Assembly: GCF_028713515.1 (NCBI RefSeq)
Contig: NZ_JAQTOD010000001.1
Location: 1-64,000, forward strand
Reading direction: 5' to 3'
Length of the DNA stretch: 64,000 nucleotides
Source: Sulfurimonas sp.
GTDB lineage: Bacteria; Campylobacterota; Campylobacteria; Campylobacterales; Sulfurimonadaceae
Part shown: positions 30,751-60,201 of the stretch, in pieces
How positions within the stretch are numbered: the first letter of the stretch is position 1
How the letters are laid out: the number at the start of each line of letters is the position of its first letter
Notes under the pieces: generated by a model
What the model saw: only the letters and a program-made list of their open reading frames with translations
Told to the model about the DNA's origin: nothing
Databases searched by the model: none
Position numbers and translations under genes: made by a program

Positions 30751-32472
30751 TTGGAACAACTATTGAAAGAAATTTTTAAACGCTATTCGCCATATATGAA
30801 GGATTATAAGCTCCAATATTTTTTAGTCATTGTGGGTATTATTTTAACTGTTAGTGCTACAGCAGCAACCGCACATATTATGAAGCCACTTATGGATGAT
30901 ATGTTTGTCGCAAAAGATGAAAAAATGCTCTATCTTATACCGTTTGGACTAATTGGAATCTATGTAGTTAAATCAATTGGCAGATACATGCAGTCAGTTT
31001 TTACAAAATATATTGGTCAGCATATCATCGCAAGACTTCGTGAGACGCTACTGGAGAAAATCATTAGTCTTGATATGTCGTTTTTGTATGCAAATCGTAG
31101 TGGAGAGCTGATTTCACGAGTAGTAAACGATATTGATAGAATTAGATATTTTGTCTCAAGCATGTTGCCAGATCTGCTCCGCGAGATACTCACGGCTATT
31201 GCCCTTATAGCTTATGTTATATATCTGAACCCCATCCTCGCTTTTTACTCTCTGGTTGTTATGCCGCTTATCATCTATCCGCTTATTTTAGTGGCTAGAA
31301 AACTAAAAAAATATGCCCATAGGTCGCAAGAAAAAAATGCGGATGTTGTAAGTAGGCTTACTGAGGTGTTTAATAGTAGTGAAATTATAAAAGCAAATGC
31401 TACTCAGAAGTTTGAGTTAAAAAGATTTAGTGTAGAAAACTGGCAATTCTTTAAAATAAATATGAAATCGGCTTATGTCGGAGATATAGTTTCGCCAATC
31501 ACCGAGATAGTCGCGGCAGTCGGACTTGCCATGGTTATATTTGTCGGCGGAAGAGAAGTTTATAACAATAACATGAGCGTTGGAGAGTTTACTGCTTTTT
31601 TAACAGCCATCGGGCTTGTGATGCAACCGCTTCGCCAAATTGGAATCATTTACCCTAAAATTCAAGACGCAACAAGTGCAAGTGAGAGAGTTTTTGAGAT
31701 ACTTGATACGCAGAGCAAAATCGTGGATGGAGATAAGATTTTAGAAGATGATATTGTGCATATTGAGTTTAAAAATGTAAAGCTAAAATATGACAATACT
31801 TATGCATTAGATGATATAAATATAGATATAAATAAGGGGCAAAATATTGCACTTGTCGGAGATAGTGGGGGCGGGAAAAGCACATTTATAAATATGCTTC
31901 TTCGTTTTTATGACCCAGAGAGTGGCGAGATTTTGATAAATGGTACAAATATAAAAGAGTTTAACCAAGACTCTCTGAAGCACCATATCTCACTTGTTAC
32001 GCAGAGAGTTTACATCTTCCAAGATACTCTTGCAGCAAATGTTGCTTATGGACAAGAGATAGATGAAAAAAGAGTAAGTGAAGCGCTTGAGTTAGCCGAT
32101 GCTTCGGCTTTTGTGGACTCTCTTGAGGATAAAATGTACACAAAAATGGAAGAGTTCGGTACAAATCTATCAGGTGGACAGAGACAAAGGATTGCAATTG
32201 CTAGGGCTATCTATAAACATTCATCTTTAGTTCTTTTTGATGAGGCAACCTCTGCACTTGATAATGAGAGTGAAAAGAGAATTCAAAAAGCTCTTGATGA
32301 ATATACAAAAGATAAAATCACCATAACAATTGCCCATAGACTAAGCACCATAAAAAATGCCGATAAGATTTTAGTTATACAAAAAGGTAAAATTGTTGCG
32401 AGTGGGAATCATGATGAGTTGATGGAAACTTCGCAGGTTTATCAAAGATTAGCTGGAGAGTTGAAGAATTAA
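30751..32472 (+). CDS. msbA: Lipid A export-type ABC transporter (MsbA family); TTG start
   Basis: TM domain plus GDSGGGKST Walker A, LSGGQRQRIAIARAI, VLFDEATSALD. Confidence 0.9.
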   Translation: MEQLLKEIFKRYSPYMKDYKLQYFLVIVGIILTVSATAATAHIMKPLMDDMFVAKDEKMLYLIPFGLIGIYVVKSIGRYMQSVFTKYIGQHIIARLRETLLEKIISLDMSFLYANRSGELISRVVNDIDRIRYFVSSMLPDLLREILTAIALIAYVIYLNPILAFYSLVVMPLIIYPLILVARKLKKYAHRSQEKNADVVSRLTEVFNSSEIIKANATQKFELKRFSVENWQFFKINMKSAYVGDIVSPITEIVAAVGLAMVIFVGGREVYNNNMSVGEFTAFLTAIGLVMQPLRQIGIIYPKIQDATSASERVFEILDTQSKIVDGDKILEDDIVHIEFKNVKLKYDNTYALDDINIDINKGQNIALVGDSGGGKSTFINMLLRFYDPESGEILINGTNIKEFNQDSLKHHISLVTQRVYIFQDTLAANVAYGQEIDEKRVSEALELADASAFVDSLEDKMYTKMEEFGTNLSGGQRQRIAIARAIYKHSSLVLFDEATSALDNESEKRIQKALDEYTKDKITITIAHRLSTIKNADKILVIQKGKIVASGNHDELMETSQVYQRLAGELKN

Positions 32473-32478
32473 ATTAAT

Positions 32479-32504
32479 AATAAAACAGACTTGTTTGTTT
32501 TATT
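32479..32504 (+). terminator. Terminator-like hairpin after msbA
   Basis: 9-bp inverted repeat AATAAAACA / TGTTTTATT just after the stop codon. Confidence 0.5.
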
Positions 32505-32636
32505 GCATAATAATAATTAATAAGATTTTCAACACTTTTTAGAGATAATCGCTACGATTAATATAGATAATTTTTTTGCCAAAAAGTGGCAAACTGCAGC
32601 GACTATTGCTGTTTCAATAATATGCAAGGATGAAAA

Positions 32637-46888: not shown

Positions 46889-48220
46889 ATGTCATTTGAA
46901 AAATTAGGAGTTATAAAACAACTTCTCAAATCTATAAAAGATTTAGGCTATGAAAAACCTACAACTATTCAAAAAAGAGCCATTCCTCTAGTTTTGGCAA
47001 AGAGCGATGTTTTTGCAACTGCTCAAACCGGAACTGGTAAAACCGCTGCATTCGGACTTCCTATGCTTCAGCGACTTAGAAAAACAACTGCAGATGAGAG
47101 CAGGGCAATAAGAGGTCTTATACTTGCGCCAACTCGCGAACTCTCTATTCAGATTTATGAAGATTTGCAAAATTATGCTAAAGGAATGGATCTTGATATT
47201 TCAGTTTTGGTGGGTGGCAAAGATATAGAGACCCAGCAAAAATTACTCAAAAAAGGGGTTGATATTATTATCGGAACTCCTGGAAGAGTTATGGAGCTGG
47301 TGAGTAAGGGCGTTAGCTTGGCTAGCATAGAGATTTTTGTGTTAGATGAAGCTGACAGAATGCTGGATATGGGCTTTGCCAAAGATATAAGAGTTATCCA
47401 CCCACTTCTACCAAAAAGACATCAAACACTACTTTTTTCAGCTACTTCTAGTGATAAGGTGAGAAAATTATCAAAATTGCTTCTGACAAAGCCAGATTTT
47501 GTAGAAGTCTCTAAAAAGAATTCAACCGTTGAGACAATAAATCAAGTTGCGTATTTAGTGGATACAGACAAAAAAGCGGCGCTTTTGGCATATATAATCG
47601 GCTCAAGAAACTTTAGACAAGTTTTAGTCTTCACAAAAACAAAAGCAAGTGCTGATTCGCTGATAGCAGAGCTTAAAAACGATGGATTAAAGTGTGGCGT
47701 TATCCACGGAGATAAAACTCAAGCGCATAGACTTAAAACTCTAAATGAGTTTAAAGAGGGAAAAATAAAAGTTTTAGTAGCTACTGATATAGCCTCAAGA
47801 GGGCTAGATATCGAAGATCTACCATTTGTTATAAACTACGAGTTGCCATCAATTCCAGAGGATTATGTCCATAGGGTTGGGCGAACCGGGCGTGCAGGTA
47901 AAGATGGCATAGCTATTTCACTGCTTGATATATATGATGTTTTTGATATAAAGGCAGTGGAGAAGCTTATAGGAAAGAAGATTCAAAAAGAGGTTGTTGA
48001 GGGCTTTGAGCCAGATAAGTCTGTACGAAGAAAAGATCAAGATGAAGTAAAAATAAAAAGTGAGTATAAGTCAGCTGAAAAAAAGCAGAGCTCAAAAAAA
48101 TATAGCACTAAAAAGTCAACCTTTAAAAAATTAGATTCAAAAAAGGTAGGTACAAAGAAGCCAGCAGAGGCTAAAAAAGCACCAGCGTCAAAAAAAAGAA
48201 AAACAACAAAGCGTGATTAG
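46889..48220 (+). CDS. rhlE: DEAD-box RNA helicase, RhlE type
   Basis: Q motif, AQTGTGKT, PTRELSIQI, VLDEADRMLDMGF, SATSSD, HRVGRTGRAG; Lys-rich tail. Confidence 0.92.
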   Translation: MSFEKLGVIKQLLKSIKDLGYEKPTTIQKRAIPLVLAKSDVFATAQTGTGKTAAFGLPMLQRLRKTTADESRAIRGLILAPTRELSIQIYEDLQNYAKGMDLDISVLVGGKDIETQQKLLKKGVDIIIGTPGRVMELVSKGVSLASIEIFVLDEADRMLDMGFAKDIRVIHPLLPKRHQTLLFSATSSDKVRKLSKLLLTKPDFVEVSKKNSTVETINQVAYLVDTDKKAALLAYIIGSRNFRQVLVFTKTKASADSLIAELKNDGLKCGVIHGDKTQAHRLKTLNEFKEGKIKVLVATDIASRGLDIEDLPFVINYELPSIPEDYVHRVGRTGRAGKDGIAISLLDIYDVFDIKAVEKLIGKKIQKEVVEGFEPDKSVRRKDQDEVKIKSEYKSAEKKQSSKKYSTKKSTFKKLDSKKVGTKKPAEAKKAPASKKRKTTKRD

Positions 48221-48273
48221 CCACCGAGACTACGCGTTTTTGTAAAAAATGGCGTAAAAATATCTTGTAATTA

Positions 48274-48369
48274 TCGAAAAACTTGTTTTTCGTAGCTTTA
48301 TGGGATCGGAAGGGACGATGAGTCCCTACCACAAAGACGGACTTGTTCGTTTTTGTGTATAACATCAAT
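48274..48369. repeat. Structured intergenic element, copy 1
   Basis: TCGAAAAAC hairpin, agTCCC, stem CACAAAGACG-GACTTGTT-CGTTTTTGTG; homologous to 59550-59650. Confidence 0.8.
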
Positions 48370-59508: not shown

Positions 59509-59549
59509 TTTTCAGCTTTTTTTGTTTTTTTGGCACAATTGTATCATTA

Positions 59550-59650
59550 TAGTTCTCGAAAAACGAGTTTTTTTGTAGCTTTAGAGGGCTGGAAGAGATG
59601 ATAAGTCCCTTTCACTAAAACGGACTTATTCGTTTTAGTGGGTAGCATCA
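59550..59650. repeat. Structured intergenic element, copy 2
   Basis: Stem CACTAAAACG-GACTTATT-CGTTTTAGTG; homologous to 48274-48369. Confidence 0.8.
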
Positions 59651-59694
59651 GTGTTTATTATAGAAAATGATACAATTCGCAAAAAAGGAAGATA

Positions 59695-60201
59695 ATGAAC
59701 TGGTTTTTTATAACTTTAGGATACAGCGGGCTTTTTCCAAAAGCTCCAGGAACGGTTGGAACTATCGTTTCTCTTCCTGTTGGAATGGCAATACTTATAT
59801 ATTTTAGTGCTCAAACACTTTTTTTAGCAGCTCTTCTTATTACTATAATTGCTATTCGTGAGATTAATAGATACGAAAGCGTTAGTGGCACTCATGATGA
59901 CAAGAGAATAGTCATTGATGAACTTGCCGGCATGTGGTTTGCGCTTAGCGTTGCTCCAGCTATCTCGATAAGTGCAGATCAGATAGGAAATTTTCAAAAT
60001 GGATTTTTAGTTCAAAGCCTGCTCTCTTTTGTTCTATTTAGATATTTCGATATAACAAAACCCTCAATAATCGGAAGATTAGACAGAGAAGCAAGAGGTG
60101 GAATTGGAGTAATGGGTGATGACATTGTTGCTGGATTTGTTGCTGGAATACTAAGCGCTGCCATTTGGCAAGGTATTCTTCAGATTCAAACTATGCTTTA
60201 A
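59695..60201 (+). CDS. pgpA: Phosphatidylglycerophosphatase A
   Basis: SGLFPKAPGTVGTIVSLP, HDDKRIVIDELAGMW, RFFDITKPS-like motif, GIGVMGDDIVAG. Confidence 0.93.
   Translation: MNWFFITLGYSGLFPKAPGTVGTIVSLPVGMAILIYFSAQTLFLAALLITIIAIREINRYESVSGTHDDKRIVIDELAGMWFALSVAPAISISADQIGNFQNGFLVQSLLSFVLFRYFDITKPSIIGRLDREARGGIGVMGDDIVAGFVAGILSAAIWQGILQIQTML

Follow-up and report, generated by a model that had tools for sequence, protein, structure and literature searches.

What is the repeated, foldable DNA that takes up the intergenic space between rhlE and a CopD-like membrane gene in a Sulfurimonas genome? A preliminary description of the window analysed here (64,000 nucleotides, positions 1 to 64,000 of contig NZ_JAQTOD010000001.1; all features of the copies described below for it lie on the plus strand) had reported an element of ~100 bp in two copies, and had proposed that it could be either a structured RNA or a MITE/REP-like mobile palindrome. 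We are confident that it is a MITE, a ~140-bp non-autonomous DNA transposon that an IS701-family transposase would move in trans and whose interior has a conserved fold; this identification draws on the observed ends, 7-bp target-site duplication, same-end IS partner, copy number, element-free relatives at the rhlE locus and compensatory changes. The window copies are decayed members of a previously undescribed MITE family of the order Campylobacterales, and a search of the open literature returned neither a MITE described in Campylobacterota nor a prior description of this family.

The first copy is full-length but worn. Nhmmer and the covariance model matched 48225-48367 (152.5 bits, E = 4e-31 in the window), and because the outermost bases of the family proved to be C and G, we place its span at ~48224-48368, its outermost C/G positions being the ones predicted from the family ends. 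The reported location was correct, and the element is longer than the proposed ~100 bp, extending left into a worn terminal repeat; the neighbouring landmarks are the rhlE stop codon (48218-48220) and the start of the CopD-like gene (48386). Alignment with other copies of its own genome revealed the left terminal inverted repeat (CGAGACTACGCG for TGATGTTACGCAC), and the left-end part (48225-48260) also holds a local inverted repeat, TACGC/GCGTA (hairpin H1; 48231-48235/48252-48256). Further in lie hairpin H2 (CGAAAAAC/GTTTTTCG; 48275-48282/48285-48292, spanning 48275-48292), a conserved single-stranded box (TAGCTTTA; 48293-48300) that is followed in most copies by a G-rich run, hairpin H3 (core GGGAC/GTCCC, 48312-48316/48322-48326, within 48308-48330) and hairpin H4 (CACAAAGACG/CGTTTTTGTG; 48330-48339/48348-48357) with a 2-bp apical extension (G-U, A-U). 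The ‘AGTCCC box’ of the preliminary description is the 3' arm of H3, and the stem it singled out is H4. The right terminal inverted repeat is GTGTATAACATCA plus an outermost A (48355-48368; family consensus GTGCGTAACATCAG), and the target duplication is no longer left there. No promoter or terminator was found in this copy.

The second copy (59546-59650 by nhmmer; 102.3 bits by the covariance model, E = 4e-20 in the window) has lost its left end and sits between the divergent dapE-like (M20 peptidase) and pgpA genes. Both copies are where they had been reported and align with a mean column identity of 87%; the H4 counterpart (59613-59622/59631-59640) is present, and the two stem differences described between the copies do preserve pairing. 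Both copies fold, the plus strand slightly better relative to shuffled controls (z ~ -2.5); in both, the terminal inverted repeats are worn, and the 7-bp duplication is visible at neither. The interior of the second copy contained no promoter or terminator, and a nearby promoter-like match (59667-59696) was at chance level. On its two sides, ATTGTATCATT and AATGATACAAT (59530-59545 and 59660-59680) form an inverted pair; these are probably the -10 regions of the divergent dapE-like and pgpA genes, which remained on either side of the insertion. A third, badly worn copy directly follows an ORF ending at 32472 and retains only H4 and the right end GCATAATAATA (32478-32515; 23.1 bits, E = 0.0095).

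The element is by no means confined to two copies. BLAST of the first copy against its own 2.0-Mb genome returned ~20 significant places, therefore defining a dispersed repeat family, and a covariance model (R1) built from 17 of the own-genome copies raised the count to 26 at E<1e-3. The wider search that the preliminary description had called for found R1 matches in 66 of 100 Sulfurimonas genomes and in 12 of the 61 genera sampled across Campylobacterales (150 genomes). Among the matches listed from 200 genomes sampled across the phylum, none lay outside the order. Exact-pattern matches in named genomes came from Sulfurimonas MAGs in 10 of 11 cases and from a genome labelled Helicobacteraceae in the other; searches of viral contigs and of plasmids returned no match. 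At ~120-175 bp (typically ~140 bp), the elements are too short for a transposase and have no transposase ORF. They are intergenic (106 of 107 copies lie between ORFs of at least 80 aa, one inside), have no fixed neighbour genes and show no preferred orientation relative to genes (49:39, 43:45). Two own-genome copies (C2:262988-263161, L097/L018; and C1:481929-482090, L104/L014) share the same 33-bp insertion (AGGTATGCTAACCAATGGCATACT...) after the TAGCTTT box, so that they may form a subfamily or carry a nested insertion.

A full-length copy reads CTGAYSTTACGCAC...GTGCGTAACATCAG, and in the own-genome alignment such copies extend further left and terminate in inverted repeats, TGATGTTAYGCAC... 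and ...GTGCGTAACATCA. The outermost C and G were present in 30/36 and 31/36 copies from other genera, and in 33/54 and 41/54 copies from Sulfurimonas. Exact occurrences of the end CTGANNTTACGCA numbered 59, 104 and 57 (31+28, 51+53 and 30+27) in three genomes of other genera, two complete and one draft, and its reversed control gave none in the same genomes. We compared the flanks of 90 full-length copies with shuffled pairs, and found a 7-bp target-site duplication outside the C/G ends both in the 54 Sulfurimonas copies (mean identity 0.64 vs. 0.46, z = 9.0; 9 perfect cases vs. 0.58 expected) and in the 36 copies from other genera (0.81 vs. 0.49, z = 12.5; 16 perfect vs. 0.79 expected). Pooled, this amounts to 25 perfect cases against ~1.4 expected, with other lengths at background; the rise also seen for a 9-bp comparison begun one base further in reflects the same 7 bp, which it includes. 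The window’s own genome has one perfect duplication (ATAATAA).

At the locus of the first copy, the gap between rhlE and the CopD-like gene has no element in four relatives (G067, G024, G040 and G354); the element there is therefore specific to its own lineage, although the sites are not comparable base for base. In the nearest two (G040 and G354; L255 and L256), the gap holds a pseudouridine-synthase-like gene, identified as such from its sequence, that may have been lost from the window’s genome. MITEs with unrelated interiors (127, 164-178, 269 and 435 bp) carry the same ends and the same 7-bp duplications, so that a single kind of transposase would mobilise several elements that carry no cargo. 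One such family, of 269 bp, is strongly palindromic and GC-rich and occurs in G102 and G177 (L174:6175-6443, L175:7101-7369, L172:11502-11770 and L169:2677-2944); another group, of 165-178 bp with a 435-bp composite and ends CTGACCTTACGCA, occurs in G139 (L182:197-631, L204:131-295 and L177:3801-3978).

The best candidate for that transposase emerged when sixteen genomes, mostly carriers, were searched for DDE transposases (PF01609): one locus had matching ends (G081, L218), the other PF01609 loci having none. Its ORF is bounded by CTGATGTTACGAT...ATCGTAACATCAG in an IS of 1203 bp whose terminal repeats (CTGATGTTACGATAATC...) are perfect over 22 bp, and the encoded protein of 355 aa scores 264.8 bits against NCBIfam IS701_2 (NF049921; cut-off 250) and 44 bits against PF01609 (cut-off 23). 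Autonomous elements with MITE-type ends measure 1.1-1.2 kb; copies were found in G081, G083, G265, G291 and G272, and relatives of the transposase in 17 of 228 genomes of the family. At least seven IS copies in G083 have 7-bp duplications (among them AAAATCA, TAAATAA, TTTATAA, TTAATCC and CACTTAA), and one element in G291 has 8 matching flank bases. MITEs in G224 and G139 have exactly the ends, CTGACCTTACGCAC, that the IS elements of G265, G291 and G272 carry. G081 holds both MITE and IS, but there the IS matches the outer 11 bp only; among the genomes examined, none showed a young MITE together with a parent having an identical 14-bp end, and pairing terminal repeats up to 4 kb apart in G139 and G102 recovered MITEs only. 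The window’s own genome yielded no such transposase gene. Two further DDE transposase genes, L220 (G224) and L221 (G127), lie near ends like TGCGAAAGTTCAG and TGCGAAAGTTGAG that resemble the MITE ends without matching them, and possibly belong to related IS groups. The shared ends and duplication length suggest that the MITE would be mobilised in trans.

Assignment of the partner to the IS701 family follows its passing of the IS701_2 cut-off. Classic members of the family duplicate 4-5 bp, with nTAG in Deinococcus (PMC10017437), and the Geobacillus elements ISGka1 and ISGka2 produce 4-9-bp duplications in AT-rich sites (PMC8024623). Classic members start CTGTACTTTG..., whereas the partner found here starts CTGAYSTTACG and duplicates 7 bp, not the classic 4-5 bp; it is therefore at most a divergent IS701 group.

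The interior of the element is a conserved fold, since its covarying hairpins are real and family-wide. Among 100 Sulfurimonas copies and the 24 pairs of H2, H3 and H4, 98.7% of pair cells pair, and 14 pairs have changed on both sides; a covariation count gave 79 double-change cells vs. 7.4 (sd 2.5) after shuffling, and 4-17 in slid-partner controls. H4 is 99.0% paired with compensatory double changes in 8 of its 12 pairs, and H3 is 97.3% paired with three such pairs; the double-change counts of these two hairpins lean towards structure because the alignment was fitted to them. H2 is absent from the model, yet it is 99.3% paired and also has three pairs with double changes (98 distinct copies). 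Across genera, the stem sequences change almost completely while the fold is kept and the box at 48293-48300 stays near-invariant. The interior is not a piece of the IS, whose sequence lacks the MITE core. The H-type pseudoknot suggested in the preliminary description was not supported. Its bases are shared with an arm of H3 and with the apical stem of H4, where they also pair; its four core pairs are near-invariant, with three double-change cells, all in bases constrained by H3/H4; its fifth pair is 64% paired; and the complementarity is uneven and lapses in other genera.

A fold that covaries in this way might be taken for a host-encoded regulatory RNA (a riboswitch, a 5'/3'-UTR element or a small RNA) that happens to be multicopy. 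The strong covariation of three hairpins, the conserved single-stranded box, the excess of G-T over A-C pairs and the better folding of the plus strand, seen in 121 of 134 copies outside the window’s own genome, would all suit such an RNA, and loop-to-flank complementarity of the kind proposed is shared with H-type pseudoknot riboswitches (e.g. preQ1). Against it stand the terminal inverted repeats with their 7-bp duplications and matching IS, the patchy distribution with an orthologous locus lacking the element in relatives, and the absence of fixed neighbours, of an orientation preference, of a promoter or terminator and of any Rfam match above the gathering score in the window (the best sub-threshold hit at the locus being at chance level, E = 7.8); in contrast to preQ1-type riboswitches, the MITE has neither covariation support for its pseudoknot, nor a fixed gene context, nor an Rfam match. 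We rejected this identity on those grounds and regard it as very unlikely, so that of the ‘structured RNA’ half of the original proposal there remain the covarying hairpins and a strand asymmetry pointing weakly to RNA. Still more improbable, to the point that we consider it ruled out, is a palindrome of the REP/RAYT type that a tyrosine (HUH) transposase would mobilise. It is true that GTAG adjoins H2 in most copies, and that GTAG/CGTC-tagged REPs, likewise dispersed extragenic palindromes, have been reported in another member of the phylum, Sulfurovum (PMC3733652); but those are single hairpins of 20-40 bp with a tyrosine transposase or none, whereas the element studied here is a four-hairpin, ~140-bp unit with terminal inverted repeats, 7-bp duplications and a parent IS encoding a DDE transposase, and its GTAG is found on the 3' side of a hairpin in the interior rather than at the terminus. 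The MITE part of the ‘MITE/REP-like’ alternative is thus the part that stood.

Given that the element is a MITE, the more delicate question is whether its fold has been kept as RNA or as DNA. Its palindromes may have been maintained at the DNA level only, by template-switch correction in replication or by extrusion that aids the transposase, with RNA being irrelevant; the further MITEs that share these ends are strongly palindromic too, and the copies show no orientation preference relative to genes. Since a plus-strand G-T pair is an A-C mismatch on the minus strand, the G-T:A-C ratio shows which strand’s fold matters. Both DNA-level processes are strand-symmetric, yet outside the window’s own genome G-T exceeded A-C: the 84 top-scoring copies gave 45:3 (14 vs. 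1 by position), a count that overstates the effect. Score selection could inflate it, and we therefore used the complete copy sets of two genomes, which gave a modest asymmetry of 8:3 and 20:6 (28:9 together); folding all copies without G-U gave 38:5, much of it from one genus group (19:0). These cells share ancestry and are not independent. Unpaired positions had no matching mutation bias, and the H4 G-T pair was kept in 92/100 copies, both of which also weigh against the DNA-level explanation, whereas the window’s own genome (25:19, i.e. no asymmetry) favours it, this ratio fitting decay and being one that could also mean a small effect. Taken together, these counts give a hint that the plus-strand fold is under selection, probably as RNA: such selection is probable in lineages in which the family is, or has been, active, and the copies of the window’s own genome would be decaying neutrally. 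Maintenance as DNA only is a possibility that we take seriously while inclining to doubt it. We put forward tentatively, as a reading falling somewhat short of an even chance, that the interior is a genuine RNA module: throughout Campylobacterales its fold of three hairpins would be selected as plus-strand RNA, and an IS701-type transposon that lacks the module would carry it.

The MITE that we describe forms a new family within an established class of elements, and its fold is unusually well documented. ERIC (Yersinia/enterobacteria), Correia/NEMIS (Neisseria), BOX/RUP (pneumococcus) and QMITE2 (Coxiella) elements are likewise ~100-250 bp long, without ORF, with inverted ends, target duplications (7-9 bp in QMITE2; PMC10969869), intergenic dispersal and transcripts predicted to fold. 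MITEs with folded transcripts can alter mRNA stability or undergo RNase III cleavage, the latter being known for Correia transcripts (PMC10969869, PMC2649163). Unlike ERIC, Correia, BOX and QMITE2, the Sulfurimonas MITE has different ends, a different sequence, another host phylum and an IS701-type partner; its interior is also kept from genus to genus, has undergone compensatory changes and shows a plus-strand bias in the counts above. We envisage that a 1.1-1.2-kb IS would provide, in trans, an IS701-family transposase that recognises the ends CTGAYSTTACGCAC/GTGCGTAACATCAG and inserts the element into AT-rich intergenic targets with duplication of 7 bp. The interior is a conserved scaffold of H2, H3 and H4 around the box GTAGCTTTAGGGGG, together with H1 at the left end. 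Ends and fold are common to copies across the order; in the window’s own genome the transposase is gone and the copies are decaying. The plus-strand fold may be kept because read-through transcripts are tolerated or processed, as with ERIC and Correia MITEs, so that an insertion would do little harm.

For specialists, the partner transposase and the strand test are useful rather than startling, and the family also cautions against calling an intergenic element a riboswitch on the strength of covariation alone. Strand-asymmetric covariation offers a cheap sequence test for a long-standing question about bacterial MITEs, namely whether their folded interiors persist for the sake of the RNA or of the DNA only, and this family brings many hundreds of natural copies to it. 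The results name and explain an intergenic repeat family of Sulfurimonas and many of its relatives and identify its probable transposase; if the interior is indeed an RNA module, the MITE would be selfish DNA with a fitness governed by how its transcript folds.
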